DNA from: an uncultured Bacteroidales bacterium
Lineage (GTDB): Bacteria > Bacteroidota > Bacteroidia > Bacteroidales > Paludibacteraceae
DNA: 64,000 nucleotides
Assembly: GCA_902799705.1 (NCBI GenBank)
Contig: CADCBP010000002.1
Span: 92,181-156,180 of the forward strand
Direction of reading: 5' to 3'
Shown here: positions 312 to 62,155 of the stretch, one piece after another
How positions within the stretch are numbered: the stretch's first letter is position 1
How the letters are laid out: each line of letters opens with the position of its first letter
Notes under the pieces: model-generated
Told to the model about the DNA's origin: nothing
The model's database searches: none
What the model saw: the letters and a program-made list of their open reading frames with translations, nothing else
Made by a program: the position numbers and the translations under genes

Positions 312-1208
312 ATGCTATTACGAAAGATTTACTCATTCCTGTCGTTGCTTTTGATAGCCACTACGGTATCTGCTCAGCAGCCTGAAATCTCTGTCGCGGA
401 GCGCAATGCTGCTCAGGGATTCAATGATACCATAGACCGTCTCGCTCCGGATTTCGTAAAAGTGAGCCTCTGTATCGCTGACCCGACTGATCAAAGCCAG
501 GATTATTTGGGAATAACTGGTCATGCTTTTCTGCGTTTGCAATGTCCGGCATTCGGATTGGATTATTGTTTCTCTTATGAGAGCGAAAAAATCAAAGGTC
601 AGTTATGGGATTACATTACAGGAAAACTTAAGATGGGCATGTTCGGTATCCATACGGAAGAATATATTCAGGATTACCAAATATGGCAACGCGCGGTGCA
701 TGAATACCGTATCAACATGCCACCCGATGCCGAGCAACGTCTTTGGGAGCAGATGGATAATCACATGCTCAACGAGAAAGATATGCAGATGAATCTATTT
801 AAGTTCGGTTGTGCAAATACTCTCCTTCGCTACGTCGAACGAGCCCTCGCTCCGACACAAATAGAGTATAACTGGCCCGAGAAATTCTATAATCTGTCAG
901 CTATCGAAATAGCAGAAGAACATCTGGAGTGCTACCCGTGGACGCTATTAGGGATGCGCCTGACGGCAGGAATGGAATATAACCAACTGACCACCCCAAA
1001 ACAGAAAGTAATTTTCCCTACCGACTTATTGGAAGTATGGTCGAATGCCACAATTAACGGAGAACCCATGTTGGCTTATATAGGAGATTTGGTAGAAGCA
1101 GAGCCGGTTGTCGCTGAGAGACCTTGGTTTACACCGCAATTATGCGGCATCTTATTGTTGATTATCATTGCTGGAGGAATAATATGGGCTATTATCCGTA
1201 AACGTTAA
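312..1208 (+). CDS. DUF4105-like (permuted NlpC/P60-type) exported membrane protein
   Basis: 298 residues. Residues 1-21 form a signal peptide ending in a VSA-Q type site, and residues about 273-294 are a strongly hydrophobic helix followed by IRKR, so the body should sit in the periplasm anchored at its C-terminus. Around residue 70 the motif GHAFLR, and around 165-171 the motif FGCANTL, resemble the histidine and N/C blocks of DUF4105 (Lnb N-terminal) and related permuted papain-like hydrolases; H71 and C167 are candidate catalytic residues. Only 13 bp separate it from the condensation-like gene, so it may share that operon. The family call rests on two short motifs, and an acyltransferase or amidase role is speculation. 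Confidence 0.55.
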   Translation: MLLRKIYSFLSLLLIATTVSAQQPEISVAERNAAQGFNDTIDRLAPDFVKVSLCIADPTDQSQDYLGITGHAFLRLQCPAFGLDYCFSYESEKIKGQLWDYITGKLKMGMFGIHTEEYIQDYQIWQRAVHEYRINMPPDAEQRLWEQMDNHMLNEKDMQMNLFKFGCANTLLRYVERALAPTQIEYNWPEKFYNLSAIEIAEEHLECYPWTLLGMRLTAGMEYNQLTTPKQKVIFPTDLLEVWSNATINGEPMLAYIGDLVEAEPVVAERPWFTPQLCGILLLIIIAGGIIWAIIRKR

Positions 1209-1255
1209 TCCTAAATCTCCAATGTCCAATTTCCAATCTTCAATAAAGAAATATC
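1208..1255 (+). repeat. 7-bp word array (CCAATnn) over a gene start
   Basis: Successive heptamers of the form CCAATGT, CCAATTT, CCAATCT, TCAATAA span the junction between the DUF4105-like gene and the condensation-like gene. The ATG at 1222 lies inside the array, so the first residues (MSNFQSSI) are array-encoded. Confidence 0.65.
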
Positions 1256-2379
1256 CTCTTCTCCCCTTCTCCCGACTCGTATATGATATAGTACGTTGGC
1301 TGCCAAGGGTATATCGTTTCCCATTAGCATGCAGATGGCGAAATGGGGCAAAAGAAAAAGCCCGTATTGAGCAAGCAATACGAATTGCTTTGGCGAATCA
1401 TCCTGCTTTTCAAATGCGTGTGGATGGACACGGCAACCATTATCCCTCGTCGTTGAAAGATATACTTCATGGTCCGTACCATGATTTTGACCTTTCCGTA
1501 CAAGGTGAGGATTTGATAATAAAAGTGCAGATAAGTCGCATTCTCGGCGATGGGCGCAGTGCTGAAATTTTATTGGATGATATTCAACGCGCCTATGTTG
1601 GTTTACCTTTAGAGCCGGATGCTTATTGGGAGTATGTAGAGAAATACGAGCGCTATAAAACGGATACGCATTATCTCTCCAGCCATGATTGGATGATTAA
1701 AGAGTTCGCAGATTCGTCTGTTCCTGTCCACCCGACGATGGATCGAAGATCTGTGTTAACGCTTCTTCCTCCAAAAGCCGGGTTGTTTGCGGATGATTAT
1801 ACATCTTTGCATGAACAGATAGATCGCTTGAAGATGGAGCAGTTTATCTCTTACGAAGGTCTCTTCTCGCTCTGCACTGCCTTGGCAATTGCCGACTATT
1901 GTAATACTGATTCAGCGGCAATCACATGGGCGTATGAAGGCCGCGAAGCACCGGAAGAGCAACGTATATTCGGAAGCCTTCATCGCGACGTACCGTTCAA
2001 AATAAATTATAAATCAAAAATCATAAATCATAAATCGGATTTGATTCGCGAAGCAAGGAATCAAATCCGTTCCGGTATTGCCCATAGCGATTATCCCTAT
2101 ACGCTGACGGCACCTTATAACAAGCGATGGAACTACGCCGTCAATGTGCTGCGCATCGCCGAACCGGAAAATATGCTCCGGAATTTCGACCTGCCCTTAG
2201 AGATAGTTTCTGTTCCGGAACAGAAATACGCCTATGCGCTCCTCGACGTAGAAATCCATGAGCATCAGGATGACTTATCCCTTTGGTTCCGCTATTCCGC
2301 TACCCATTATAAGGAATCTTCTATCCGACGCTTTGCATCCCTTGTCCGCAAATATGTCGAATGGCTGTTAAAAGAATAG
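1222..2379 (+). CDS. Condensation-domain-like protein (NRPS C-domain fold)
   Basis: 385 residues, a stand-alone protein about the size of one condensation domain. The N-terminal part has the pattern of such domains (L/Y-rich start, then ALANHPAFQMRV at about 56-67). The block ISRILGDGRS at 104-113 corresponds to the HHxxxDG motif, but both histidines are replaced by S105 and R106 while D110-G111 are kept. The C-terminal part (LSLWFRYSATHY, then a basic helix) also fits. Loss of the second His, normally important for amide formation, suggests altered chemistry or a structural role. Residues about 261-273 (INYKSKIINHKSD) are encoded by an ATAAATC repeat array. Downstream decarboxylase, carrier protein and ligase genes suggest it handles a carrier-bound acyl group; that is inference. 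Confidence 0.6.
   Translation: MSNFQSSIKKYPLLPFSRLVYDIVRWLPRVYRFPLACRWRNGAKEKARIEQAIRIALANHPAFQMRVDGHGNHYPSSLKDILHGPYHDFDLSVQGEDLIIKVQISRILGDGRSAEILLDDIQRAYVGLPLEPDAYWEYVEKYERYKTDTHYLSSHDWMIKEFADSSVPVHPTMDRRSVLTLLPPKAGLFADDYTSLHEQIDRLKMEQFISYEGLFSLCTALAIADYCNTDSAAITWAYEGREAPEEQRIFGSLHRDVPFKINYKSKIINHKSDLIREARNQIRSGIAHSDYPYTLTAPYNKRWNYAVNVLRIAEPENMLRNFDLPLEIVSVPEQKYAYALLDVEIHEHQDDLSLWFRYSATHYKESSIRRFASLVRKYVEWLLKE
2000..2037 (+). repeat. In-frame 7-bp array (ATAAATC) inside the condensation-like gene
   Basis: ATAAATT, ATAAATC, AAAAATC, ATAAATC, ATAAATC run in series and are translated as INYKSKIINHKS. The same word family recurs at 3355-3392 in the decarboxylase gene. Confidence 0.7.
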
Positions 2380-2380
2380 T

Positions 2381-2416
2381 TCGTCATCCCGTCATCCCGT
2401 CATTACGTCATTACGA
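2381..2416 (+). repeat. 8-bp array (CGTCATCC/CGTCATTA) between genes
   Basis: Four octamers CGTCATCC, CGTCATCC, CGTCATTA, CGTCATTA fill the gap between the condensation-like stop and the decarboxylase start. An open frame from 2361 reads through it, but the ATG at 2427 is preferred because everything upstream is array. Confidence 0.7.
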
Positions 2417-2426
2417 AAAAACACCT

Positions 2427-3515
2427 ATGACCGCCCTTATAAATGATATAGACCTCCGCGCTTTGCTCGAGCAGTCGCTTTTGCAGGCGGCTATCGCCAA
2501 TCCGCATCGGGAGACAAATCCCGTGCGGACAATAGACCAATGGCTCGCGTATGTAGAGCGCTTCGCGCATCTAATGCCGTGGCAAGGGATGGATATCGGC
2601 GAAGATGCTTCGTTCTTTCGACGCATCGACCAGAATATCGGCTATTTCTATTTCCTGCTCGACCAGCCTTTGGATGCCCTTCGCGACAAGGGCTACATCT
2701 ATCCCTCGCTTCAATACGAACCGCGAGTCGCGGCGTGGCTTAAGGCCTATAATAAAGCTTGGGGCGAATACCTCAGCAGTTCGGATAGTTGGAATGACTC
2801 CTATTATAATCTTGCGCGCACAGATGCGCGTTTTGAACTGGAAACCGATCGCTACGAATCGCCCAACCATTGGCATTCTTGGAATGACTTTTTTGCTCGA
2901 AAACTTCGTTCTGAATCCCGTCATCCCGTCATCCCGTCATCCCGTAATTCTGTTAACCCATTCCTTTCTCCTTGCGACGGGGAGATCGCGTTCTCGCCAA
3001 TCAAAACCGCTTCTATCGCTAACTGGCTGGATCTGCTCGGCGACAGCCCGTATCGCGATGCCTTTGCCGGCGGCGAGACGACTCATATTGTCCTCGATGT
3101 CTTTGACTATCATCGTTTCCATACGCCCTGCGACGGTACGGTGCTGGAGTGCAAAACGATAGAAGGCATCCATGCCGGCGGAGGTGTCATTATCTGGGAC
3201 GAAGAGCAGGGTAGGTATCGCTATGACCAACTCGGAGCCACGGATTTCCAGATGCTTGAGACGCGCGGCGTTCTTGTCCTCGAAACCCCCGCTTTCGGCA
3301 AAATCGCCCTTGTCGCCGTCGGTGTCCAGCAAGTCTCTTCCGTCCAGTGGACTTTCATAAATCATAAATCTGAAATCATAAATCATAAATTAACTCAGGG
3401 CACCGAGTTAGGTTCTTTCCTCTTCGGCGGCAGCGACGTCGTCCTTTTCTTTGAGCCAGGCCGTGCTCCGCATATTTCGCCCAAATCCATCAAAGCAGGT
3501 GACGGAATAGCGTAA
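2427..3515 (+). CDS. Phosphatidylserine-decarboxylase-like pyruvoyl enzyme
   Basis: 362 residues from the ATG at 2427. The N-terminal ~130 residues resemble the PSDC-associated domain found in fungal and bacterial PSD-like amino-acid decarboxylases such as the tryptophan decarboxylase PsiD; the rest is a PSD core. Visible core motifs are SPCDGEIAF, DYHRFHTPCDG (about 228-238), the GVQQVSSVQWT strand and FGGSDVVLFF, where G335-S336 is the expected self-cleavage site that makes the pyruvoyl group. Bacterial PSD usually has LGST here. There is no N-terminal membrane segment. Two repeat arrays are translated inside the gene (2912-2947 and 3355-3392), both in surface-loop positions between conserved blocks. 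Context argues for a decarboxylase of a small amino-acid-like substrate rather than the housekeeping phospholipid enzyme; substrate unknown. Confidence 0.75.
   Translation: MTALINDIDLRALLEQSLLQAAIANPHRETNPVRTIDQWLAYVERFAHLMPWQGMDIGEDASFFRRIDQNIGYFYFLLDQPLDALRDKGYIYPSLQYEPRVAAWLKAYNKAWGEYLSSSDSWNDSYYNLARTDARFELETDRYESPNHWHSWNDFFARKLRSESRHPVIPSSRNSVNPFLSPCDGEIAFSPIKTASIANWLDLLGDSPYRDAFAGGETTHIVLDVFDYHRFHTPCDGTVLECKTIEGIHAGGGVIIWDEEQGRYRYDQLGATDFQMLETRGVLVLETPAFGKIALVAVGVQQVSSVQWTFINHKSEIINHKLTQGTELGSFLFGGSDVVLFFEPGRAPHISPKSIKAGDGIA
2912..2947 (+). repeat. In-frame 8-bp array (CGTCATCC) inside the PSD-like gene
   Basis: Three CGTCATCC units and a partial fourth, translated as SRHPVIPSSRN between FFARKLR and the SPCDGE motif. 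All three forward frames of this octamer are stop-free, which lets it be tolerated in genes. Confidence 0.75.
3355..3392 (+). repeat. In-frame 7-bp array (ATAAATC) inside the PSD-like gene
   Basis: ATAAATC-type heptamers encode FINHKSEIINHKL between the VQQVSSVQWT strand and the GSFLFGGS cleavage motif, a loop in PSD enzymes. Confidence 0.7.
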
Positions 3516-3527
3516 AGCGTTTCGACT

Positions 3528-3563
3528 TCGTGATCACGTGGTTACGTAATCACGTTATTACGA
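3528..3563 (+). repeat. 8-bp palindromic-word array (CGTGATCA, CGTAATCA, CGTTATTA)
   Basis: Octamers of the CGTnATnA type follow the PSD-like stop. Each unit plus the next CG is a near-palindromic 10-mer (CGTGATCACG is perfect). Confidence 0.65.
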
Positions 3564-3593
3564 AAAAAAAGAAAACGTTTTTCTTCAAAAAAC

Positions 3594-3625
3594 TTGCATA
3601 ATTCAAAAAAAAGCAGTACCTTTGC
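3594..3625 (+). promoter_or_regulatory. Promoter for the carrier protein and ligase genes
   Basis: TTG at 3594-3596, 20 bp, TACCTTTGC at 3617-3625. It lies in the 157-bp gap before the carrier gene, so the set has at least two transcription starts. Heptamers AACTGAA, AACTGAA, TACGGAA follow at about 3634-3656. Confidence 0.7.
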
Positions 3626-3672
3626 CAATCGTAAACTGAAAACTGAATACGGAATACTTCTCATAATACGAT

Positions 3673-3924
3673 ATGACTAAGCAAGAAATCATAGAGCAAA
3701 CAAATGCCTTTTTCATTCATACGCTGGATTTTGACCCGGCGATGATAACTCCCAATACAGAGTTGAGACGCGATTTGGGTATCACTAGTGTGGATGCTGT
3801 CGCAATAGCCTCATTTGTGCAAAAGACATTCAGCTGCGCTATAATCATTCCTGAGATCAAAGCCCTCGTTACCCTCCAGGATCTCTACGACTACATTGAG
3901 CAGCACAAAAATGACCCTTCCTAA
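3673..3924 (+). CDS. Acyl carrier protein (stand-alone)
   Basis: 83 residues, normal ACP size. The phosphopantetheine attachment motif is DLGITSVDAV with Ser39 as the expected modified residue. It differs clearly from the housekeeping AcpP encoded at 50861-51103 (less acidic, ITSVD in place of ADSLD), so it is probably dedicated to the pathway of its neighbours. The acyl-AMP ligase follows after 86 bp. The substrate it carries cannot be read from the sequence. Confidence 0.85.
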   Translation: MTKQEIIEQTNAFFIHTLDFDPAMITPNTELRRDLGITSVDAVAIASFVQKTFSCAIIIPEIKALVTLQDLYDYIEQHKNDPS

Positions 3925-3925
3925 T

Positions 3926-3993
3926 CCGTCATTACGAATCCCGCCCTTCCTAATCCCGAATTACGAATAACGTCATTACGAATTACGTATTAC
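3926..3993 (+). repeat. 8-bp array between carrier and ligase genes
   Basis: CGTCATTA, AATTACG, CGTATTAC and AATCCCG words alternate through the gap. Confidence 0.6.
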
Positions 3994-4010
3994 AATAAAA
4001 TCTAACTAAT

Positions 4011-5534
4011 ATGACTGACAATTATCTCAATATCCTTGCGGAGACGATCCGCAATAACTGGGATGCTCCCGCCCTCACGGATTTCTACCTTACGGAGGAC
4101 GGTACTGCCCAAGACACCACCCGCGGCAACCATTATACCTACGGCGAGATGTATGCGGAGATCTGCCGCATAGCAGACCTCCTCACTGCCCTCGGTCTCC
4201 AAAAAGGCGACCATATAGCCATCTGCGGAACCAACTCCGCCCATTGGGTCATCGCCTATCTTGCCATTGCCAAGATGCAGGGTGTGTCGGTGTTGGTAAT
4301 GCATTCGCTGACGCCTGAGCAGAAGGCGCAGTTGTTGGGCTTCTCTGACTCTAAGGCGATAATCGTAGATCGCGAGTTGTGGCAGGAGATGCAAGTTCCT
4401 CAACTTCAGCATGTAATAGCCATGAACGATTGGTCAATTTTGTCCTCTGCACAGAATCATGAGCAAGGTAAAAATAATATGACCGTTGATAGGGAAAGCG
4501 TCTCCATATTACAATGCTCTCAGGATGAATTACAGACTATCTGTTTTACATCCGGTTCTACAGGAAGACCAAAAGGTGTTATGTTGTCGTATAGAAATGT
4601 AAGCGCTTCGTCTCATGGGGTTGCAGATGCGTGTGTGCTACATGCTAATAAAAGAGCAGTATCTTTCTTACCATTGTCCCATGCCTATGTACTAGGAGGA
4701 CAAGTATTAACTCCGCTTGCACATGGAGCATGTGTGTATTCGTTATGCGGCGTGTCATCTCCTGATTTTATGTTTGCCGCTATAGCGATGATTCAACCCT
4801 ATGCAGTATTCCTTGTTCCAATGCTTGTAGCCAAATTAGGCGATGAGAGATATCGTGCATTACTGCCGATATTACTGAAATCATTGGAATACATGGTGAT
4901 CGGTGGTGCAGATTTTCCTATTCAGACAGAAAAAGCCTTAGCTGCTATGCGTGTACCTATTGCACCTGGGTATGGTGTGACCGAAACAGCGGCCTTAATC
5001 AGTTTATCGCCGTTCTCTCAACATCGATTAGGCGCATCCGGTCGTGTCATATCCACGCTACAATGCCGCATCTCCCCTATAGGTGAGATTCTTGTCAAAG
5101 GAGAAAATGTCATGCTCGGCTATTACAAAGACCCCGAAGCCACAGCCGCCAAAATAGACTCCGACGGCTGGCTTCATACCGGCGACAAAGGCCATCTGGA
5201 CGAAGACGGCTATCTCTATGTAGAGGGCCGTCTGGAGCAGGACATCATCGTCCTGCCCAATGGCGAGAACATCCGCCCGGACAATATCGAATCCCTCATC
5301 AATGCCCTTCCCGAAGTCTCCGAATCCATCGTCCTTGCCCGCGACGGCAAATTGGTGGCTATTGCGGTGCTCTCGTCCCCTTCCCTTCAGGGGAGGGATA
5401 GGGTGAGGCTTTCTATCCTCCGCGCCGTCAATCCGCAGTTGCCGCTCTTTAGCCAACTCTACGATGTCGAGATTACGGATGTTCCTCTGCAAAGAACCGA
5501 AAAACAAACGATAAAAAGATATCTCTATTCGTAA
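4011..5534 (+). CDS. AMP-dependent acyl/aryl ligase (acyl-ACP or acyl-CoA synthetase family)
   Basis: 507 residues, full length for the ANL superfamily. The P-loop-like motif TSGSTGRPKGV is at about 182-192, the A5 motif GYGVTETAAL at about 322-331, the GWLHTGD and GRLEQDIIVLPNGENI blocks at about 386-421, and the C-terminal QRTEKQTIKR contains the expected catalytic Lys. LPNGENIxPxxIE is typical of fatty-acyl ligases more than of NRPS adenylation domains. Paired with the adjacent carrier protein it probably loads an acyl group as a thioester. The stretch 4430-5060 uses noticeably more A/T-ending codons than the two ends, suggesting a mosaic gene. A CCCCTTCCCTTCAGGGGAGGG inverted word near 5377 is read in frame as SPSLQGR. 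Confidence 0.8.
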   Translation: MTDNYLNILAETIRNNWDAPALTDFYLTEDGTAQDTTRGNHYTYGEMYAEICRIADLLTALGLQKGDHIAICGTNSAHWVIAYLAIAKMQGVSVLVMHSLTPEQKAQLLGFSDSKAIIVDRELWQEMQVPQLQHVIAMNDWSILSSAQNHEQGKNNMTVDRESVSILQCSQDELQTICFTSGSTGRPKGVMLSYRNVSASSHGVADACVLHANKRAVSFLPLSHAYVLGGQVLTPLAHGACVYSLCGVSSPDFMFAAIAMIQPYAVFLVPMLVAKLGDERYRALLPILLKSLEYMVIGGADFPIQTEKALAAMRVPIAPGYGVTETAALISLSPFSQHRLGASGRVISTLQCRISPIGEILVKGENVMLGYYKDPEATAAKIDSDGWLHTGDKGHLDEDGYLYVEGRLEQDIIVLPNGENIRPDNIESLINALPEVSESIVLARDGKLVAIAVLSSPSLQGRDRVRLSILRAVNPQLPLFSQLYDVEITDVPLQRTEKQTIKRYLYS

Positions 5535-5642
5535 TTGCGTCATTACGTAATAACGAGATCCCGAATCCCGTCATCCCGTCATCCCGAAAAAATTAACGGT
5601 TCGTAATTCCGTCATTCCGTCATTACGAATCCCGAAAAAACA
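5532..5642 (+). repeat. 8-bp array downstream of the ligase
   Basis: Long mixture of CGTCATTA, CGTAATAA, CGTCATCC and AATCCCG words filling the 137-bp gap to the next gene. No promoter is evident. Confidence 0.65.
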
Positions 5643-5671
5643 TCATCATTAACCCCTTAAATAAATCTTTT

Positions 5672-6424
5672 ATGAAAATAGGCACTGCCGGATATTATTG
5701 GTTAGACACATGGATCCTCGCGAATGTCATCCAACTCGCTACCCAGAACTTTTGTAAAACCTTTCTCAATCTGCAGAACGATCCCTGTGGACGGCAGTTT
5801 GACCAGATGACACAGGCGGCACGTTCCTGTACCGCCAATATCGCCGAGGGTAACTCGCGCCATTACACATCCCGCGAGACGGAAATGAAACTGACCGATG
5901 TCGCGCGCGCCAGTCTCTCTGAATTGGCGAATGACTATATCAACTGGCTCTTGCAATCCGATCAGTTGCCTTGGTCTAATCAATCATCGGAATATATCTC
6001 CATCGCCACTCTGCCTCTGGACGCTCCCGACTATAAGGACGATGTCCAATACCAGAGTTCTCGCCATATTCTTGCGCAAAAGCACAAGTTCGACCCCTGG
6101 CTCAAGACGACCGATTCCATGCAGGCTGCACGGTGCATTTTGGTACTCTGCAACCGTTTGACAGCCATGCTTAATAAGCAGATAGAGAAACAGTTATCAT
6201 CCTTCACGGAAGAGGGCGGTTTCACCGAGGCACTTACTGCCGAACGCCTCAAACAACGTACTGCCGACAGCCTCTCCGCGGACGCCCCGCAATGCCCCGT
6301 TTGCGGCAAACCGATGCTCAAGCGAATGGCGAAGAAAGGCCTCAACTCCGGCAAGCCCTTCTGGAGCTGCAGCGACTATCCCAACTGCACCGGAACAAGA
6401 AAATTTGAAAGTAACCCGTCCTAA
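5672..6424 (+). CDS. Four-helix-bundle protein with C-terminal zinc ribbon
   Basis: 250 residues. Residues ~10-190 match the pattern of four-helix-bundle (S23-type) proteins: long amphipathic helices with the motif CTANIAEGNSRH and TDVARASLSELAND. Residues ~205-245 form a topoisomerase-type C4 zinc finger: CPVCGKPM, then FWSCSDYPNC. The combination is known in Bacteroidetes as a four-helix-bundle suffix-domain protein. The function is not known; nucleic-acid binding is suggested by the zinc ribbon only. The region is flanked on both sides by octamer arrays. Start chosen at the ATG at 5672 (MKIGTAGYYWL). Confidence 0.75.
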   Translation: MKIGTAGYYWLDTWILANVIQLATQNFCKTFLNLQNDPCGRQFDQMTQAARSCTANIAEGNSRHYTSRETEMKLTDVARASLSELANDYINWLLQSDQLPWSNQSSEYISIATLPLDAPDYKDDVQYQSSRHILAQKHKFDPWLKTTDSMQAARCILVLCNRLTAMLNKQIEKQLSSFTEEGGFTEALTAERLKQRTADSLSADAPQCPVCGKPMLKRMAKKGLNSGKPFWSCSDYPNCTGTRKFESNPS

Positions 6425-6512
6425 TCCCGAGAAATTAAACCCTTCGTCATCCCGTCATTACGATATTTCCTCTTTCGTCATTACGTCATTACGAATCCCG
6501 TCACCCCGAAAA
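6422..6512 (+). repeat. 8-bp array, longer copy shared with 9105-9203
   Basis: From 6428 the words CGAGAAATTAAACCC, CGTCATCC, CGTCATTA and CGAATCCCGTCA occur in the same order as at 9105-9203. The second copy has an extra AATTACGTCATTACG. The two copies bracket the DUF3737 and hipBA genes. Confidence 0.75.
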
Positions 6513-6513
6513 A

Positions 6514-7290
6514 ATGAAAATCTCTGACCAAATACTCTCCGGCGAGCGTCCCTTGTACGCCTCCCGCGATCTTCAACTCTCCCGCGTCACCATCGGCGAA
6601 GGCGAGTCAGGACTCAAAGAGTCTCGCCATATTCTCGCTGAAAACTGCCGTTTCGAGGGCATGTACGTCATCTGGGAGTGTGAGGACGTCACCTGCCGCA
6701 ACTGCTATTTCGCGCCTTCTGACCGAGCTCCGCTCTGGTACTGCCGCGATCTCCGTCTCTTTGATTGCCTCATTGATGCGCCCAAAGCCTTCCGCGAGAT
6801 AGACCGGCTGACCCTTGAGCGTATCAAGATAACCGATGGCGCGGAAGCCTTATGGCACTGCCGTGGTGGACAGATCTCCGACCTCCGGATAGAGCAGGGT
6901 ACCTACGCTTTTATGCATGCTTCCCAATTTCAAATCTCCAATATCCAATTGCAAGGCAAATATATCTTCCAGTACGCCCGTAACATCGAGATTCATAATG
7001 CTATCCTTGATACCAAAGACGCTTTCTGGAATAGCGAGAACGTCACGGTCTATGACTCCGAAATCAAAGGAGAATACCTCGGTTGGTATTCCAAAAACCT
7101 TCATCTCGTCCGTTGCCGCATAGCCGGAACCCAACCGCTCTGCTATGCCGAGAACCTCGTTCTGGAGGACTGCTCTTTCGCGCCTGACGCTGACCGCGCC
7201 TTCGAGAAATCATCAGTCTACGCAACCATCCTCGGCGAGATTACCTCTATCGTTAACCCCCTCCCCGGTTCAGAAATCAGGAAAAGATAA
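6514..7290 (+). CDS. DUF3737 family beta-helix-like protein
   Basis: 258 residues with the short alternating repeats of DUF3737 proteins (for example CRFEGMYVIWECEDVTCRNC, then similar rungs with conserved W/Y, C and N). The fold is probably a right-handed parallel beta-helix; the role is unknown. There is no signal peptide, so it is likely cytoplasmic. The heptamer array at 6925-6957 is translated in frame as QFQISNIQLQ. The last residues (NPLPGSEIRKR) are encoded by a sequence that recurs after hipA at 9041-9076, and the protein appears to stop earlier than the usual DUF3737 C-terminus (judged from memory), so the end may have been replaced by repeat DNA. Confidence 0.75.
   Translation: MKISDQILSGERPLYASRDLQLSRVTIGEGESGLKESRHILAENCRFEGMYVIWECEDVTCRNCYFAPSDRAPLWYCRDLRLFDCLIDAPKAFREIDRLTLERIKITDGAEALWHCRGGQISDLRIEQGTYAFMHASQFQISNIQLQGKYIFQYARNIEIHNAILDTKDAFWNSENVTVYDSEIKGEYLGWYSKNLHLVRCRIAGTQPLCYAENLVLEDCSFAPDADRAFEKSSVYATILGEITSIVNPLPGSEIRKR
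6925..6957 (+). repeat. In-frame 7-bp array (CCAATnn) inside the DUF3737 gene
   Basis: CCAATTT, CAAATCT, CCAATAT, CCAATTG run in series and are translated as part of a beta-helix rung. Same family as the array at 1208-1255. Confidence 0.6.
7254..7290 (+). repeat. Left direct repeat bordering hipBA
   Basis: TAACCCCCTCCCCGG, then YTCAGAAAT and an A-rich tail; it matches 9041-9076 with a few differences. Here it encodes the last residues of the DUF3737 protein. Confidence 0.7.
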
Positions 7291-7817: not shown

Positions 7818-9043
7818 AATACATCCAAATCGATATGGACGCCAAGAGTCTCCCACAGGCAAAACCTGTAGGTGCGCTTGGCTATGACATGATACGCGGC
7901 AATGCGGCGTATCAATGGGAGTTCGATGCGCACTGGCTTCATGACCACCGAAATATTCAGTTAAGCGGAGATTTGTTGAATGCCGGTGGTTTGCAGTATG
8001 GCTCAGGACGTTTGTTCGGTTTCCTGCAGGACGCCATGCCGGATAGATGGGGCAGGAGACTGATTGACAAGCGCGAGCGAATACTGGCAGTGCGCGAAGG
8101 GCGCCCTGTTCGGCATCTGACCGACATCGATTATCTTACGCAGATTGATGATACGACCCGTATGGGAGCTTTGCGCTTACGCGAAAAGGAGCAATTATTA
8201 GGAACTCAGTTTGCCGATACCCCTGTTCCGCCTTTGGCTCATCTTCCGGAATTCGTGGACATGGCGCAGATGTATGAGCGACAGGATGAACAAGGAGGCG
8301 CAATTCGTGAGGAATGGTTGTTGAATTTGTATAAGCAGGGTTCCTCTTTAGGAGGTGCGCGTCCAAAAGCTAACGTGCGAGATGCGGATGGGGCCTTGTG
8401 GATTGCTAAAATTCCTTCCGTTAATGACGATTATGATGTGGCGTTATGGGAGTTTTGGGCGCATAAGATGGCGCGTGTAGCAGGGATAGAAGTGCCGGAG
8501 ATGCGGCTGTTGACGCTACCGGGTCAGAAGTACCATACCCTGTTATCCAAGCGTTTCGACAGAGACGGAGAGCAACGCATTCATTTCGCATCTGCAATGA
8601 CGCTTTGCGGATTGCAAGACGGGGCGGATGCCACAACAGGGAATGGTTATTTGGATATAGTCGATGTGATTGTCGGGAATGCCGGAATTGTGGATCCGCA
8701 GAGCGCGCTGGAGCAGTTATACCGGCGTGTGGCGTTCTCGATATGTATCCGTAACCACGATGACCATTTTCGTAATCACGGCTTTTTGTTAACAGAAAAA
8801 GGGTGGGTATGGTCTCCTGCTTATGATCTTAATCCGTCCGATTTTGACACGCAAAGTCTGCTTGTCTCGCGCGACAGTAACGATTCCTCTTTAGAGGTGC
8901 TGTCGGCTGCTGCAACCGATTATTTGCTGAGCGCTACCCAAGCAGAGCGGATTATTAACGAGGTGCGCGCAGCGATGACCCATATCCGCCGAATTGCCCG
9001 CCAATGCGGCATCTCCGATCGAGAAATGGCGCGATTCATCTAA
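7814..9043 (+). CDS. hipA: HipA-like serine/threonine kinase toxin
   Basis: 409 residues, normal for HipA. The N-terminal subdomain (GRLFGFLQDAMPDRWGRRLI) is followed by the Gly-rich ATP loop GSSLGGARPKANV (about 175-187), the catalytic loop NHDDHFRNHGFLL (about 312-324) and the metal-binding YDLNPS (about 336-341). All key HipA motifs are therefore present and the toxin looks intact. HipA of Escherichia coli phosphorylates glutamyl-tRNA synthetase and causes growth arrest; the target here is unknown. The stop codon TAA at 9041-9043 is the first three bases of a direct repeat also present at 7254. Confidence 0.9.
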   Translation: MKYIQIDMDAKSLPQAKPVGALGYDMIRGNAAYQWEFDAHWLHDHRNIQLSGDLLNAGGLQYGSGRLFGFLQDAMPDRWGRRLIDKRERILAVREGRPVRHLTDIDYLTQIDDTTRMGALRLREKEQLLGTQFADTPVPPLAHLPEFVDMAQMYERQDEQGGAIREEWLLNLYKQGSSLGGARPKANVRDADGALWIAKIPSVNDDYDVALWEFWAHKMARVAGIEVPEMRLLTLPGQKYHTLLSKRFDRDGEQRIHFASAMTLCGLQDGADATTGNGYLDIVDVIVGNAGIVDPQSALEQLYRRVAFSICIRNHDDHFRNHGFLLTEKGWVWSPAYDLNPSDFDTQSLLVSRDSNDSSLEVLSAAATDYLLSATQAERIINEVRAAMTHIRRIARQCGISDREMARFI

Positions 9044-9076
9044 CCCCCTCCCCGGCTCAGAAATTCGAAAAATAGA
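9041..9076 (+). repeat. Right direct repeat bordering hipBA
   Basis: TAACCCCCTCCCCGG then CTCAGAAATTCGAAAAA. It corresponds to 7254-7290, and its first triplet serves as the hipA stop. Confidence 0.7.
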
Positions 9077-9085
9077 AAAATAACC

Positions 9086-9295
9086 CTTATTCATCCCTTG
9101 ATTTCGAGAAATTAAACCCTTCGTCATCCCGTCATTACGAATTACGTCATTACGATATTCCCCTTTCGTCATTACGTCATTACGAATCCCGTCATTTCTA
9201 ATCCCGTAATTACGAATTACGTCATTACGATATTTCCTCCTCCCCCTAAGCCTCTAACCCTCTAACCCTCTAACCCTCCCCCTAACCCCCGACCC
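9086..9295 (+). repeat. 8-bp arrays downstream of hipA
   Basis: CGTCATTA/CGTCATCC words occupy 9120-9230 (9105-9203 being the longer copy shared with 6428-6510), followed by a CTCTAACC octamer run at about 9250-9285. The whole 250-bp gap is array DNA with no promoter motif that I can see. Confidence 0.7.
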
Positions 9296-10450
9296 ATGCT
9301 CCTCTCTGATCACATCTTCTCCCCCTCCATGCGCTATGAATCGCATCGATTTTATGTCAATCGCCCCGGCGACGAAGACGCTTTTGTCTTCGGCGGCATT
9401 CTCGGCGCGGCGCTTGCAGCGGTGTCTCTCGTCGATACAGACGAAGGAAATGCACGTGGCTTACGGCTCTATACGGATGACGAAAAAGAGGAGTTCTTCG
9501 CCCGCTACGACCGCGAAGTCCTGCATGACGACTGGGGATATCTTGATGCTGAAATAGACCAACTCCATGATGCCTATGTCCAACTGGCCGTAGCCGATGT
9601 GCCGCTCTCTGCTCTCTACCCTCATGTCCGATTACTGAACCTCGCGCTGGACCTCATGGTGTCCTATATGCATCGCTTGGCCGTAGAGCAGTATCGTGAA
9701 CATATATGGGATCTCATCCCATGGACGGAACCTTTCGCTCAATGGCTCTGGAGCGCTTCGCAGGTGGAGACCCGCCGCCAGCGATACCTCCAAACCGATT
9801 GGACCGATGTCATGGAGGTGGTTACGCTCGCGGATAAGAAAGAGGAACCGTTGGCGCCCGTCTTTTTCTTTGAAGGAGAAGGAGCGCAAGATATCATGTC
9901 ACGCTATCTGGAATGGCTGAATATGGAGTACGTAGCGATGGTTAAGGAGCACCCTGGTGCTAAAATCACCAATGCAGACCGCTCCTTCATCCTTTACCAA
10001 GAAACCGATTATGGCTTCCTCTCCGATGAAATAGCCGCCCTCTCTCCGGACGACCAAGCCTCCTTCCGCCAATGGATGACGGAGTGGGAGACCTTCCTTA
10101 CTGCGCAACTCAAACCGCAGGAAGAAATCCGTTTCTGGACCAAAGAAGTGCCGGAGAACTTGCGCGAAAAATTACTGGAATATCTTCGCTTGCAGGAAAA
10201 ACAACCTGCGCATTATCAGGCGCTTACTTCTGCCGTCTATGCGCTGCGACAATTGGGATATATCCCCTATAAATTAGGGCTCCGTTCCATGCGCCAATGG
10301 CTCTCGGATCATCTTTCTGAAAACTATATGCTCAAGAATACCGCCGCGCAGTTTAACCGGGCTTGGAAGGAACATGGCCGCTATACACCTGTCGTCCGAG
10401 AGCAGGTAGATATCCTCACCCAATACGGTATTAAAAAGATTTCCATCTAA
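9296..10450 (+). CDS. Unknown protein, mostly alpha-helical, 384 residues
   Basis: I do not recognise this family with confidence. The sequence is acidic, rich in Trp, Tyr and Leu, lacks a signal peptide and membrane helices, and looks soluble and helical. The C-terminal ~70 residues (LRQLGYIPYKLGL, then LSDHLSENYMLKN and FNRAWKEHGR) resemble the C-terminal helical region of small Bacteroidetes hypothetical proteins such as the DUF6043 type; that link is weak. It is preceded by array DNA and followed by its own terminator, so it is a single-gene unit. The first ATG at 9296 gives MLLSDHIFSPSMRYESHRF; the ATG at 9329 (MRYESHRF) is an alternative start. Confidence 0.5.
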   Translation: MLLSDHIFSPSMRYESHRFYVNRPGDEDAFVFGGILGAALAAVSLVDTDEGNARGLRLYTDDEKEEFFARYDREVLHDDWGYLDAEIDQLHDAYVQLAVADVPLSALYPHVRLLNLALDLMVSYMHRLAVEQYREHIWDLIPWTEPFAQWLWSASQVETRRQRYLQTDWTDVMEVVTLADKKEEPLAPVFFFEGEGAQDIMSRYLEWLNMEYVAMVKEHPGAKITNADRSFILYQETDYGFLSDEIAALSPDDQASFRQWMTEWETFLTAQLKPQEEIRFWTKEVPENLREKLLEYLRLQEKQPAHYQALTSAVYALRQLGYIPYKLGLRSMRQWLSDHLSENYMLKNTAAQFNRAWKEHGRYTPVVREQVDILTQYGIKKISI

Positions 10451-12205: not shown

Positions 12206-12363
12206 GTGCTAATTTTTCTTCGTCAATTAACGCCGAATCCTATTCGGCATCTCAATCATTTTGCATTTCTGTTGTATTTTTGCAACAGCAACCATGCGCC
12301 TAATCGTTATAGATTAGTTAAATATTTGTTAATCATTTGTTAATCATTAAGCATAGTAAATAT

Positions 12364-35998: not shown

Positions 35999-36005
35999 TG
36001 CAAGT

Positions 36006-36707
36006 ATGACGATACTATGTATCGAAACTAGTACATCGGTTTGTTCGGCCGCCATCTGCAAGGATGGCGAGCCGTTTAAACAATGTATATGCCGTGAAGG
36101 TAGCAACCATGCCCGGTTGCTACCTCGCTATATAGAGGAATTGCTCTCGTTCGCGCGTGAGCATGACCTCTCTATAGAGGCGGTGGCACTTTCTGAAGGA
36201 CCGGGTAGTTATACCGGTCTCCGAATTGGAACCAGTACCGCGAAAGGACTATGCTACGGACTGAATATACCGCTTATTCCTGTCCCAACCTTGGAAATTC
36301 TTTGTGAGGCGGCAAAGCAGCAATCCACAAACTGTATTCAGCCGTCAGCCGTTCTTATCCCGATGATCGATGCCCGCCGGATGGAAGTATATACGACGGT
36401 AATGAAGAACGGTGAAAGGCCGAATGGCGAAAAAGCCCGCGCAGTAGTAGTAGAAAACGAAGCAAGTCTGTACGATGGCGACGAAGAAGTGTATTACTTC
36501 GGAGACGGGGCAGAGAAATGCTCAAAAATCTTTACGAAACCGAACTGGCACTATGTTCCGGGGATAGTACCGGAAGCACAATTCATGGCTTTGACTGTCG
36601 GTTCACCGTCGGTTGACCGTCGGGAAAACCAGCAACTTGCCTACTACGAACCCTTTTATCTCAAAGAGTTCATAGCCGCGCAGAGTCACGTGAAAGGACT
36701 AGTTTAA
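36006..36707 (+). CDS. tsaB: TsaB, tRNA threonylcarbamoyladenosine biosynthesis partner
   Basis: 233 residues from the ATG at 36006 (MTILCIETSTSVCS). Family motifs are visible: IETSTSVCSAAI at the start, NHARLLPRYIEELL, and the signature ALSEGPGSYTGLRIGTSTAKGL (about 60-81). TsaB is an inactive ASKHA paralogue that stabilises TsaD for t6A37 formation in tRNAs reading ANN codons. Length is normal. It begins 7 bp after the barrel gene and is followed by a heptamer array and porW-like gene. The words GGTTCACCGTCGGTTGACCG near 36600 are translated as GSPSVDRR. Confidence 0.9.
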   Translation: MTILCIETSTSVCSAAICKDGEPFKQCICREGSNHARLLPRYIEELLSFAREHDLSIEAVALSEGPGSYTGLRIGTSTAKGLCYGLNIPLIPVPTLEILCEAAKQQSTNCIQPSAVLIPMIDARRMEVYTTVMKNGERPNGEKARAVVVENEASLYDGDEEVYYFGDGAEKCSKIFTKPNWHYVPGIVPEAQFMALTVGSPSVDRRENQQLAYYEPFYLKEFIAAQSHVKGLV

Positions 36708-36757
36708 AGTGAAAAGTGAAAGGTGAAAAGTGAAAGGTGAAAGGTGAAAGGTGAAAG
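36708..36757 (+). repeat. 7-bp array (GTGAAAR) at the tsaB-porW junction
   Basis: Seven heptamers GTGAAAA or GTGAAAG in tandem. The chosen GTG start of the downstream gene is one of them. Confidence 0.85.
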
Positions 36758-44130: not shown

Positions 44131-44202
44131 TAAAAAACAAAGAAGGTTGTCTCCCGACAACCCAATCTTTTTACTTAACCTTAAATCTAATACCATGAAA
44201 AA
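44131..44202 (-). ncRNA. Small RNA candidate between trmD and psuKG
   Basis: On the minus strand the promoter at 44209-44240 would start transcription near 44202. About 40 nt later is a hairpin GGTTGTC-GGGA-GACAACC (44145-44162) followed by TTCTTTGTTTTTT, a strong terminator. The ~70-nt product contains no persuasive gene: a 30-codon frame from 44196 runs through the terminator and is not called. Confidence 0.6.
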
Positions 44203-44208
44203 CACGGT

Positions 44209-46996: not shown

Positions 46997-48249
46997 AGAT
47001 AGAGTTTGTCTCCTCGATGAATCAGTTTATCGGTTTTGAGGGAGAAGTACTCCCCTTTCTTAATGTGTTTGGTAGGCTTGCCCTCCGCGTCACGCATCCC
47101 TTCCGCGCGGCACTCATACACACCGGTGGTCTCACCCGTAACCAGCAAATCAGCGCCTTCTTCTATCGCCTCGACAGCTTCCACCAGAAACTCCGCCACA
47201 CTCAACTGCTTGAAGAAATTGGTGCATTTAGCTGCGTATATCTTTGTGCGGGTCGCTTTATTGCCGTAAGTATGGGTCCACTCGCCAAGACGTTGCCCCT
47301 GATAATAACCATCCCAGAAACCGCGGTTAAAGACCTTGCTAAGGCGTTCGTTCCAGTCGGCTATCTTCGGTTCAATGACGGCATCGTTGTTGTACTCGCC
47401 GCGTTGCCATGCTTCCACCGCTTCACGGTAACAGCGCACAACGGTATCGACATATTCGGCTCCGCGCGCACGGCCTTCAATCTTCAGCACCCGCACACCG
47501 GCATCCAGCATCTTGTTGAGGAAGTGGATGGTCTTTAGGTCCTTGGGCGACATGATATATTGGTTGTCAATGTCCAACTCAAGATCAGAAGACTTGTCTT
47601 TGACGGTGTATCCGCGCCGGCATACTTGCACGCACGCGCCGCGGTTGGCACTGAGACCGTAGTTATTCAGGCTCAGGTAACATTTGCCGCTCACGGCCAT
47701 GCAGAGCGCGCCGTGGCAGAACATCTCGATGCGTATCGGTTGACCGTTGCGGCCGCATATATGTTGTTCACTGATGTCATGATAGATGGATGCCACCTGC
47801 TCCATGTTCAACTCGCGGGCTAACACGACCACGTCGGCGAACTGCGCATAGAATTTCAGCGCCTCGGTGTTGGCGATATTCAGTTGGGTGGACAGATGCA
47901 CTTCCTGCCCGATGCTGTTGGCGTACTGCATCACGGCGATGTCGCTGGCGATGATTGCATCGACTCCTACGGTGTGCGCATGATCCACAATCTGGCGCAT
48001 CAACGGCAGGTCTTCGGGATACATCACGGTGTTCACCGTCAGGTAGGTTTTTACCCCTGCCTCGCGACAACGCGCCACGATAGTGCTCATGTCTTCCGTT
48101 GTGAAGTTGACAGAACTGCGGGCACGCATGTTCAGGTGCTCGATACCGAAATAGACACTCGTAGCACCGGCCTCTATCGCTGCGGCCAAACTCTCCCAGC
48201 ATCCTACAGGAGCCATGATTTCAATATCTGAGTGGTCAGTTTTCAGCAT
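46984..48249 (-). CDS. U32 family peptidase-like protein (TrhP/YegQ type)
   Basis: 421 residues. The family signature is visible: [19 protein letters not shown]-like start, [11 protein letters not shown], and the Cys cluster [16 protein letters not shown], then [12 protein letters not shown]32 members such as TrhP and RlhA hydroxylate RNA bases (ho5U34 in tRNA), and the proposed peptidase activity is doubtful. Its start overlaps asd by 7 bp, and the junction is built of heptamers (48230-48265), so MLKTDHSD is array-encoded. Confidence 0.85.
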
Positions 48250-48265
48250 TCGGTATTCAGTAGAT
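48230..48265 (-). repeat. 7-bp array across the asd-U32 junction
   Basis: On the minus strand ACTGAAT, ACCGAAT, GCTGAAA, ACTGACC, ACTCAGA run in series. They encode both the last residues of Asd (NTEC) and the first of the U32 protein. Confidence 0.7.
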
Positions 48266-49499: not shown

Positions 49500-49520
49500 T
49501 TATTCTCTAAACTCTAAACA
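49500..49520 (-). repeat. 7-bp array (TTTAGAG) behind fabF
   Basis: Heptamers CTCTAAA (plus-strand reading), related to the array at 53846-53866, lie directly after the fabF stop. Confidence 0.6.
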
Positions 49521-53845: not shown

Positions 53846-53866
53846 AAAGTTTAGAGTTTAGAGGAG
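53846..53866 (-). repeat. 7-bp array (CTCTAAA) before mutL
   Basis: On the minus strand CTCTAAA, CTCTAAA, CTTTACA fill the 18-bp gap between the 78-residue gene and mutL. Confidence 0.6.
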
Positions 53867-56185: not shown

Positions 56186-56240
56186 GAGGCAACTCAGAGG
56201 CAACTCAGAGGCGAGTCAGAGGCAAGTCAGAGGCAATGCC
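56186..56240 (+). repeat. Five tandem 11-bp repeats (GAGGCAACTCA)
   Basis: Units at 56186, 56197, 56208, 56219 and 56230: GAGGCAACTCA twice, then GAGGCGAGTCA, GAGGCAAGTCA and GAGGCAATGCC. They sit upstream of the small minus-strand gene. Confidence 0.85.
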
Positions 56241-58163: not shown

Positions 58164-58226
58164 ATTGTTGATAATTTGATGTATATTGGTTTTCACGAGT
58201 TTGTAGGCTTACATCCCAAAGAGCGC

Positions 58227-58235
58227 ACAAAAGTA
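58227..58235 (-). promoter_or_regulatory. Weak promoter of the 244-residue lipoprotein gene
   Basis: TACTTTTGT on the minus strand matches the -7 element, but the -33 TTG is not at the usual 20-bp distance. Confidence 0.4.
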
Positions 58236-58295
58236 CTGCTTTTCTTTGAAAAAGCATTCGCAAATCGTACAAATCGACTCTCAAATCGTACAAAT

Positions 58296-60038: not shown

Positions 60039-60060
60039 AACGCTGGATGTCTTTTCCGGT

Positions 60061-60840
60061 TCAATACAATCGTCCTACGATCCAATTGACAAAGCGTTTA
60101 GGCAGAATGCGGTCGAGGAAACAGAACACCGCATATTGCGTTCCGCCTACGTATTGCGGTGCCGGACAACGGCGGGTGGCGATACGATAGAGTTGTAGTG
60201 CCATGCTGCGCGGGCTCATGCCGCCTTGCTCGTCTTTCTCCATTGCTGCAACCGCCTTACGGATGTTGCCGTATGCGTCCATGCCATCCTCGGATTTCTT
60301 GCGTGCTGCGGTGAAACCGGTGGATACATCACCGGGCATCAGGACGCTGACGTGGATGCCGAACGCGCGCACTTCGTTTTGAAGCGCCAATGCCAATGCA
60401 TTGATGGCGGCCTTCGAGGCACTATAGAAACTCTGGTACGGAATACTCAAGACAGCCGCTACACTACTGGTGAAGATGATGCGACCTGCTTTTCGTTCGC
60501 GCATGTGAGGAAGAACTGCTTGAACACTATTGAGCGCACCAAAGAAATTAACCTCCATCTGACGGTGGGCGTCTTCCGGAGTGGTGAACTCCACGGCACC
60601 GCTGATACCAAACCCTGCATTCGAAATAAAGACATCAATCTGCCCCGCTTGCGCCAAAACTTGTTGGACGGCCGCCTTGGTATCTGCCGGTTTGGTCACG
60701 TCGCAAGATATATGCGTCACTTTGTCCGTGGATGTACCGCTGCGAGACCACTCAAAAACCTGCCAACCTTTTTCTGCAAATAACTCTGCCGTCGCTTTAC
60801 CTATGCCCGACGACCCTCCTGTAATAACAACTGTCTTCAT
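60061..60840 (-). CDS. Short-chain dehydrogenase/reductase
   Basis: 259 residues. The cofactor loop TGGSSGIG is at 7-14, NAGFGISG at 74-81, the catalytic Ser126, Tyr139 and Lys143 (SFYSASKAA) are present. The substrate is unknown; the family includes sugar, steroid and lipid reductases. The gene is the first of an SDR-HAD-AraC run. Confidence 0.9.
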   Translation of the reverse strand: MKTVVITGGSSGIGKATAELFAEKGWQVFEWSRSGTSTDKVTHISCDVTKPADTKAAVQQVLAQAGQIDVFISNAGFGISGAVEFTTPEDAHRQMEVNFFGALNSVQAVLPHMRERKAGRIIFTSSVAAVLSIPYQSFYSASKAAINALALALQNEVRAFGIHVSVLMPGDVSTGFTAARKKSEDGMDAYGNIRKAVAAMEKDEQGGMSPRSMALQLYRIATRRCPAPQYVGGTQYAVFCFLDRILPKRFVNWIVGRLY

Positions 60841-60872
60841 ATTGTATATTATCTACTGCACGCAAATCGCGT

Positions 60873-60904
60873 GCAAAGGTACGGCAAAAAATTGACATAC
60901 GCAA
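60873..60904 (-). promoter_or_regulatory. Promoter of the SDR-HAD-AraC unit
   Basis: On the minus strand TTG (60902-60904), 20 bp, TACCTTTGC (60873-60881). Confidence 0.75.
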
Positions 60905-60953
60905 GGAAATTTGAAAAATACTCGGTCCGAAGGACAAGAAAAACACAAAATAT

Positions 60954-60985
60954 TTGCGTATGTCAGGGAAAAGTAGTACTTTTGC
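60954..60985 (+). promoter_or_regulatory. Promoter of ychF
   Basis: TTG at 60954-60956, 20 bp, TACTTTTGC at 60977-60985. The following AGTCGCAAAAGTTTT also follows the psuK promoter. Confidence 0.75.
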
Positions 60986-61012
60986 AGTCGCAAAAGTTTT
61001 TAAAATACAGAT

Positions 61013-62119
61013 ATGAGTTTACAATGTGGAATAGTAGGGTTGCCGAATGTAGGCAAGAGTACCCTCTTTAACTGTCTTAGTAACGCGAAAGCGCAGAGCG
61101 CTAATTTCCCCTTCTGCACGATTGAACCGAACGTGGGAGTCATCACGGTTCCGGATGAGCGGCTGATCAAGTTAGGCGAGATATGCAAACCCGAGCGCGG
61201 TGTCATACCTACAACGGTGGAAATAGTTGATATCGCCGGATTGGTCAAAGGCGCCAGCAAAGGTGAAGGGCTGGGTAATAAGTTCCTTGCGAACATCCGT
61301 GAAACGGACGCCATCATCCATGTGCTCCGTTGTTTCGATGATGAGAACGTAGTGCATGTTGACGGAACAGTCGATCCTGTGCGTGATAAAGAGATCATCG
61401 ATGCAGAGTTGCAACTAAAGGATCTCGAGACCGTAGAGAGCCGAATCCAGAAATGTGAGAAAGCGGCAAAAGCAGGCGGTGACAAGTTTGCAAAACTGCA
61501 ACTTGAGGTATTGGTAAAGTACAGGGAAGCCCTTTCACAAGGACGCAACGCCCGTACCGTGGAGTTGGATAACAAAGACCAGGAAGCTGCGGCGCGTGAC
61601 CTTTTCCTGCTGACCAACAAACCCGTGATGTACGTTTGTAACGTCGATGAAGCTTCGGCGGTGACGGGTAACGCGTATGTGGAAAAGGTAAAAGAGGCGG
61701 TAAAGGACGAAGATGCGCAAGTGCTGGTGTTAGCGGCGAAGATAGAGAGTGAAATAGCGGAACTGGAGACCTACGAAGAGCGGCAGATGTTCCTCGAAGA
61801 GATCGGTTTGCAAGAGTCCGGAGTTAACAGGCTCATCAAAGCGGCATACGCCCTGCTCAACCTTCGTACGTTCCTTACCGCCGGTAGCGACGAGGTACGC
61901 GCTTGGACCTTCAAGGCAGGAGCTAAGGCTCCTCAGTGCGCTGGGGTTATACACACGGATTTCGAACGCGGGTTCATCCGTGCCGAAGTAATAAAATATG
62001 CCGATTTCATCGCCCTTGGAGGCGAAGCGCAATGCCGTGCCGCCGGAAAGTTGGCTACCGAAGGAAAGGACTACCTTGTACAAGACGGCGATATAATGCA
62101 TTTCCTGTTTAATGTATAA
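61013..62119 (+). CDS. ychF: YchF, Obg-family ATPase
   Basis: 368 residues. G1 motif GLPNVGKS at 9-16, then DIAGLVKGASKGEGLGNKFL, and the altered G4 motif NVDE that explains ATP over GTP preference. The C-terminal TGS domain is present (LRTFLTAGSDEVRAWTF). It binds ribosomes and is involved in stress and translation control. Its gene is followed by an octamer array and the antiporter gene. Confidence 0.97.
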   Translation: MSLQCGIVGLPNVGKSTLFNCLSNAKAQSANFPFCTIEPNVGVITVPDERLIKLGEICKPERGVIPTTVEIVDIAGLVKGASKGEGLGNKFLANIRETDAIIHVLRCFDDENVVHVDGTVDPVRDKEIIDAELQLKDLETVESRIQKCEKAAKAGGDKFAKLQLEVLVKYREALSQGRNARTVELDNKDQEAAARDLFLLTNKPVMYVCNVDEASAVTGNAYVEKVKEAVKDEDAQVLVLAAKIESEIAELETYEERQMFLEEIGLQESGVNRLIKAAYALLNLRTFLTAGSDEVRAWTFKAGAKAPQCAGVIHTDFERGFIRAEVIKYADFIALGGEAQCRAAGKLATEGKDYLVQDGDIMHFLFNV

Positions 62120-62155
62120 CGTAATAACGGAATCACGTAATTACGTAATAACGAA
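62117..62155 (+). repeat. 8-bp array (CGTAATTA) between ychF and the antiporter gene
   Basis: CGTAATAA, CGGAATCA, CGTAATTA, CGTAATAA, CGAAGAAA fill the 47-bp junction. Confidence 0.75.

Follow-up and report, generated by a model that had tools for sequence, protein, structure and literature searches.

Interchangeable heptamer and octamer words in short tandem arrays at junctions and coding sites of a rumen Paludibacteraceae genus

A 64,000-nucleotide stretch of an uncultured Paludibacteraceae genome (G000:C2:92181-156180, hereafter the window) carries short tandem arrays of 7- and 8-bp words, and at orthologous sites of related species such arrays keep their place, their period and often their length while the word itself is exchanged. 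The 173 period-7 arrays collected here comprise 72 distinct words. A preliminary description of the window, made from its letters alone, had taken the periods shared by different words as the mark of one generating process rather than of one repeat family, and the comparison of orthologues upholds that view, the process being independent of the word. From the sequence comparisons we give roughly even credence to the proposal that the arrays are heptamer repeats of a known kind, made and homogenized locally by a replication misalignment of 7–8 nucleotides (nt) that, in genes, usually comes back into register.

Tandem repeats were called with Tandem Repeats Finder (TRF) by score and, more strictly, as runs with a score of at least 12. 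The source genome G000 (2.3 Mb in 45 contigs, 94% complete) was sampled over 450 kb, consisting of the window and 20 further stretches, with genes taken as greedy longest open reading frames (ORFs), some of which have false upstream starts. Location was scored on a pooled set of 1.16 Mb made up of the same G000 stretches and 37 stretches of relatives (given L-numbers below). The pooled set was chosen largely via one gene, that of phosphatidylserine decarboxylase (PSD, assigned to PF02666), whose in-gene sites inflate the in-gene array count. Comparisons between species cover the 450 kb of G000 and selected loci of other species. Among the PSD orthologues, 12 of 35 came from entries named Paludibacteraceae bacterium and 23 of 35 from (uncultured) Bacteroidales bacterium, several of them from the rumen, reticulum or abomasum of ruminants.

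Word replacement at orthologous sites

Two sites within PSD were compared in 33 orthologues each. At site D, which lies between WNDFFxRxL and PCDG, 20 orthologues have an array, four a weak one and nine none, and the 20 arrays are built from 17 words, including five with period 8. At site E, between QQVSSVxW and ELGxF, 19 orthologues have an array, three a weak array and 11 none, with 14 words in all. At both sites most genus members have an array whose word varies by species, and distant orthologues (such as L067) have none. A third site, site B, lies in the neighboring condensation-domain gene, where 12 of the 27 aligned orthologues carry an array, three a weak array and 12 none. The window has all three (+ strand): 7-bp ATAAATC at 2002-2036 (TRF score 56) inside the condensation-domain ORF 1222-2379 at site B, 8-bp ATCCCGTC in frame at 2915-2945 (run score 23) at site D, and 7-bp TCATAAA in frame at 3355-3390 (run score 17) at site E, where a variant unit, TGAAATC, avoids an in-frame stop.

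Array-bearing orthologue pairs with different 7-mers numbered 360, of which 84 were equal in length and 276 unequal. In the 77 equal-length pairs with enough overlap, identity was 0.65 at shift 0 and 0.25–0.33 at shifts of 1–3 nt, and shift 0 was the best register in 66 of them. At the letters by which two words differ, 673 of 762 units agree with the array to which they belong. Array length often matches that of sequences lacking any array: for 47 of 93 array-bearing sequences there are array-less orthologues of precisely the same length, and one DUF3737 site measures 36 nt in 23 of 23 orthologues, with or without an array. Likewise, a receiver-domain site has a 12-residue class that holds CAGCAGT, ACCCATC, weaker arrays or none. 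A signal peptide is 23 amino acids long both in L138, which has a TCCTTTG array, and in the array-less L128. These two have the first two units in common, L132 and L137 are intermediate between them, and ten more distant orthologues have no array in the same signal peptide.

Excess over chance and period spectrum

The excess of 7- and 8-bp periodic rows noticed in the preliminary description is real. TRF reported 30 such rows in the window (some overlap one another) compared with 1.93 per shuffle in 40 dinucleotide shuffles, and 15 of the 30 scored at least 36 compared with 0.1 per shuffle, the best shuffled rows reaching 37. By the stricter definition the window has five runs of period 7 and six of period 8, with zero in 30 shuffles. 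Of the places that had been singled out, nine hold genuine arrays (1208, 2381, 3528, 3926, 5532, 6422, 9086, 36708 and 62117), whereas the row 48236-48262 at 48230 (score 33), the 2.3-copy row 53848-53863 at 53846 (score 32) and the 2.1-copy run of CTCTAAA at 49505-49519 (score 30) are at chance level.

Samples of this and related genomes gave the same picture. The 450 kb of G000 contain 49 runs of period 7, 23 of period 8, 17 of period 11, five of period 9, one of period 10 and none of period 6; ten shuffles gave zero runs. In 35 loci of the genus (643 kb) the counts were 93, 19 and 19 for periods 7, 8 and 11, 14 for period 9, three for period 6 and two for period 10, and one shuffle of each locus gave zero. 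These shuffles rule out chance or base composition as the source of the arrays. Most sampled members of this rumen Paludibacteraceae genus share a large excess that is specific to periods 7, 8 and 11. The trait is uneven, as the 20-kb stretches of some members are without any array. Eight other families of the order, sampled by one stretch each (139 kb in all), yielded no period-7 or period-8 run. The word AAAGKTG in 3.6 copies is present in 125 of 151 genus genomes and, across the phylum, in 35 of 394 genomes and 24 of 172 genera, indicating that heptamer arrays are scattered beyond the genus. Note that the read-backwards control for this word is not independent, as reversed AAAGTTG is a rotation of itself, and that stretches L257-L272 from other families have biased period spectra owing to selection of most of them for AAAGKTG.

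Array size is narrowly distributed, with four to five units in 79 of the 94 period-7 arrays in genes and in 51 of the 75 in junctions, at a threshold that drops arrays below about 2.7 units. When the threshold is lowered, the excess over shuffles is level at 24–35 nt and falls at 36 nt. In word composition the trinucleotides AAT, TAA and TCA are enriched and CG and GC steps avoided, with no clear meaning. Period 11 is treated as a separate behavior given its nearly unique words (48 words in 53 arrays). Its arrays are densest in convergent junctions (0.78 per kb) and occur at 12306-12348, 36597-36623 and 56186-56236 of the window and in L079, L080, L083 and L093.

Candidate processes and the placement of arrays

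If the arrays arise during replication, the nascent strand would misalign by one unit (7–8 nt), copy the neighboring unit and usually realign. Realignment would leave a letter or a whole unit overwritten at unchanged length, and without realignment a unit would be gained or lost. In genes, selection would retain the stop-free, in-frame and length-preserving outcomes, and in the gaps of about 30 nt between co-directional genes almost any word would survive. Mismatch repair would remove loops of 1–4 nt and leave those of 7–8 nt, which would account for the missing short units. The pattern observed is specific to the offset, independent of the word, local and often neutral in length, and misalignment by one unit followed by realignment fits it. 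A stronger version, which we advance only tentatively, is that the genus has an unusually active, word-independent and register-preserving copying that may turn non-repeat coding sequence into arrays and rewrite them at constant length, supplying loops and signal-peptide cores. Two other enzymatic origins were considered and rejected. MutS_I was found in G000 and in 140 of 151 genus genomes, which argues against loss of mismatch repair as the cause. A reverse transcriptase (RVT_1) is present in 31 of the 151 genomes and absent from G000 as assembled (94% complete), and the words are too many for one template.

Several observations weigh against misalignment with realignment. Of the 84 equal-length pairs, 59 come from two sites of one gene; the species are related, so the pairs are not independent; and two genomes were entered twice (L172/L186 and L099/L220). 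The tendency of units to differ together is partly a product of selecting clean arrays, and conserved flanking codons together with similar needs of the peptide may alone favor register 0. Some in-gene arrays are plain insertions: PSD is longer by 60 or 69 nt in 2 of 33 orthologues, a site in an L086 gene measures 60 nt in four of 18 orthologues and 12–51 nt in the other 14, and one site is 21 nt longer in one genome. Finally, two-copy repeats outside arrays show only a mild rise at period 7 (124 compared with 89), and thus the birth step is not seen. The rise at period 8 is likewise mild (41 compared with 21), and periods 6 (655 compared with 340) and 9 (39 compared with 6.6) also show a rise, probably from codon structure.

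A possible but less probable account is ordinary unit slippage, in which single units are duplicated or deleted, selection on frame and loop length restores the length, and words are replaced as units arise and disappear. Slippage of heptamers is a published hypothesis, and strains of Cyanothece differ mostly by 7-nt steps (PMC4679880). The preliminary description had suggested tolerance of slippage, and the junctions lend this weak support. In 47 between-species comparisons of junctions with a period-7 array, length was unchanged in 12 and changed in 35, of which 10 changed by a multiple of 7 (even remainders would give 5) and 25 by other amounts; the ten derive from only four arrays. Within genes a single step shifts the frame and in-frame unit steps are rare: a length difference that is a multiple of 21 was seen in only 5 of the 276 unequal pairs, where an even spread of in-frame differences would give about 39. 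Moreover, length often stays constant across several word changes.

Much less probable is the copying of ready-made arrays between loci, by a mobile repeat or gene conversion, repeatedly into the same tolerant loops. True insertions exist, as noted above, and array boundaries are sharp: the first and last units are 0.95 and 0.94 identical to the word, compared with 0.34 and 0.33 for the flanking units. Several signal peptides of G000 use the same TTTTCAA words, the junctions at 6424-6493 and 9112-9200 of the window are nearly identical (read by eye), and arrays of two species, at two separate sites, enclose a hairpin element. However, at the five sites tested, words are no more alike within than between genomes: two sites of the same genome shared a word in 1 of 47 pairs, compared with 5.0% between genomes, and label permutation reached the observed mean word distance in 340 of 2000 cases. 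Same-site words across genomes were only slightly closer (mean distance 2.23 compared with 2.64). Each site thus evolves on its own, drawing on a limited set of words. Words at one site also match in register, and no terminal repeats or target duplications were seen, although no systematic search for them was made. A mobile repeat in the sense of one sequence family spread over the genome was rejected, given the number of words and the lack of within-genome word sharing at the five sites, and genome-wide copying of words was likewise unsupported there. No polarity of homogenization along the gene was detected (upstream flank 0.342, downstream 0.333).

The hairpin element is a 26-nt dispersed sequence, ATAATCGTRCCC-NNNN-GGGYTAAGAA, found in 75 of 151 genus genomes, for example at L045:11066-11110 and L062:9680-9725. 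Its variants GCCC/GGGC, ACCC/GGGT and TCCC/GGGA covary, the read-backwards control had zero matches in the 151 genomes, and near-copies lie within heptamer arrays at two different coding sites. Another short hairpin-like insert, of the GACCGCTTCGCTGAAGGAACAAAG type, lies within AAAG-word arrays in L070, L073 (PSD), L129 and L163-L164.

The preliminary description had placed the arrays at gene junctions and suggested a role in spacing or termination. Its junction bias holds per base, the rate in junctions of the pooled 1.16 Mb being 10.2-fold that in genes, but not by count, as 113 arrays lie in junctions and 107 in genes. In the 450 kb of G000, 98 arrays of period 7 or 8 divide into 44 in genes and 27 each at gene edges and in junctions, and the window itself has in-ORF arrays at 2002-2036, 2915-2945, 3355-3390 and, weakly, 6924-6949. 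Period-7 density per kb in the pooled set is 0.77 in co-directional junctions (65 arrays), 0.56 in convergent junctions (five arrays), 0.34 in divergent junctions and 0.09 in genes; the period-8 values are 0.40, 0.34, 0.07 and 0.01. Convergent density thus does not exceed co-directional density, and a role in termination is not supported. Divergent junctions are depleted (6 of 105 arrays compared with an expected share of 14.9%, P=0.003), which also fits avoidance of promoter regions. Spacing fares somewhat better: of 99 co-directional arrays, 58 start on or across the stop codon of the upstream gene, 52 come within 25 nt of the next ATG at their other end, and 33 combine the two.

Orientation relative to stop codons separates the two settings. 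Among the 94 in-gene period-7 arrays the sense word creates a stop codon in 24 and the antisense word in 67; among the 65 co-directional ones the corresponding numbers are 55 and 35. Coding sites accept chiefly stop-free orientations, and junction arrays often provide the stop. That a selected junction function (cistron spacer, translation leader or terminator) maintains the arrays is given some substance by the stop-to-ATG arrays, the stop-making words and the divergent depletion, but is quite unlikely, as half of the arrays are in genes, words are interchangeable, period-7 arrays do not favor convergent junctions, and arrays at one junction come and go between species. The products of in-gene arrays are loops, linkers and termini of proteins as well as hydrophobic signal-peptide cores such as LSIFSFQFSIY (L091:7159-8391). 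The first 40 amino acids of that gene product (array plus signal peptide) resemble several further gene starts in its genome (G000:C10:9786-9905, C11:20711-20812 and C11:49198-49305) with 55–68% identity, two of them with an in-frame TGA.

Arrays of the window and known heptamer systems

The remaining arrays of the window (all on the + strand) are mostly in junctions. The first, 7-bp AATCTCC/CCAATnn in 4.4 copies at 1214-1244 (TRF score 41, run score 12), follows the Lnb_N-like gene 312-1208 and leads into the condensation-domain gene, whose ATG (1222) falls inside a variant unit, AATGTCC; the array is kept in place in L040 without length change and in L044 with a 3-nt change. An 8-bp array of CGTCATCC/CGTCATTA at 2382-2415 (TRF 46, run 20) occupies the junction ahead of PSD, the ORF start of which, listed at 2361, is probably false, the next ATG being at 2427. 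PSD is followed at 3529-3562 by 8/16-bp CGTGATCA/CGTAATCA (period-16 TRF row 47; the period-8 row, 33, is chance level) and at 3633-3657 by 7-bp AAACTGA in 3.7 copies (run 12), upstream of ORF 3674-3925 and 7 nt shorter in L039. A mixed 7/8-bp (15-bp) array of CGTCATTACGAATTA and AATCCCG units at 3915-3998, with TRF rows of periods 15 and 7 (scores 53, 55 and 44), precedes the AMP-binding gene 4011-5534.

Farther on, the junction 5534-5672 holds two 8-bp arrays within 5558-5624, of ATCCCGTC (TRF 37–44, run 14) and CGTCATTC (TRF 39, run 12), and the junction 6424-6514 has 8-bp CGTCATTA at 6445-6493 (TRF 42), which by eye resembles 9121-9200. A weak 7-bp CCAATAT array (6924-6949, TRF 31) occupies the constant-length DUF3737 site described above, inside the ORF 6514-7290. 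The junction 9043-9296 contains, at 9130-9278, 15-bp (7+8) CGTCATTACGAATTA and then 8-bp CCCTCTAA (TRF 93 and 60). Seven copies of GTGAAAG run from the stop codon of ORF 35898-36707 (36706-36757; TRF 84, run 36), and 8-bp ATAACGTA at 62116-62167 (TRF 55, run 17) spans the interval between the end of ORF 61013-62119 and the ATG of ORF 62167-63168. Other features of the window include a GC-rich hairpin, CCCCTTCCCTTCAGGGGAGGGATAGGGTGAGG, at 5377-5418 within the AMP-binding ORF, where the loop of other species has heptamer arrays or 9-bp repeats; a direct repeat, GATTTTTTTCAAAAAAATCAGTTTGTGCTCGCACAAG, at 1 and about 150 (within 1-200); and a FopS paralogous small RNA (RF04319, 73.3 bits) on the minus strand at 44131-44205.

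Heptamer repeats are already known. In the heptanucleotide long simple-sequence repeats of prokaryotes described by Mrazek and co-workers in 2007, 7-nt units are far above chance, and slippage was the proposed cause, 7 nt being the polymerase-contact length, according to later accounts (PMC4679880, PMC4692102). The present arrays share the excess of tandem 7-nt units but differ, as far as those accounts describe the earlier repeats, in that 8-mers occur in the same genome, about half lie in genes, and word replacement can be traced at orthologous coding sites over some 30 species. The GGGNATC and GGGGA(C/T)T heptamers of Xanthomonas and Nostoc prefer four units and overlap stop codons, and polymerase slippage is cited for them, with 83% of the G-rich heptamer in the same gene context between two Xanthomonas species and 7–8% between divergent genes in two Xanthomonas (PMC4692102). 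Our arrays resemble these in unit number (four to five), stop-codon overlap and few divergent placements. However, theirs is one word family compared with 72 words here. G-quadruplex formation was offered as the reason for their four-unit preference (PMC4692102), which has its counterpart here in words that lack this ability, since four or more GGG/CCC tracts occur in at most 1 of 169 period-7 arrays.

Direct repeats of TAACTGA, placed in junctions and also in some ORFs (there mostly at protein ends), are recorded for Beggiatoaceae, cyanobacteria and five Bacteroidetes. Paludibacter propionicigenes WB4, a cultured namesake of the family, is listed as having two sets, and a regulatory role or rearrangement has been discussed (PMC4679880). 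The junction and ORF placement is as here, but theirs is one word and no in-register word change is described in the sections consulted. Of the 173 period-7 arrays here, one has the canonical form AACTGAT as its word, and mixed ACTGAnn arrays occur. Cyanobacterial STRR heptamers and small dispersed repeats were reportedly treated by Elhai in 2008. There, as here, heptamer arrays are said to stand beside tiny dispersed hairpins, a likeness of description and not of sequence. What is new is the in-register word replacement at orthologous sites, a description of which was not found in the openly licensed papers searched, by listings, abstracts and selected passages.

Why bacteria favor 7-nt repeats is an open question for which slippage has been the hypothesis since 2007. 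Arrays at the same coding sites with different words separate period from sequence and make mechanism testable by word, length and register, and the preference for four to five units without G-tracts weakens the quadruplex account of the four-unit preference. Runs in the same place with different words point to a local copying process, not to a mobile element or a fixed signal. They give reason to regard such arrays as evolving filler rather than signals, repeat DNA that these bacteria use as coding material in enzymes and signal peptides.

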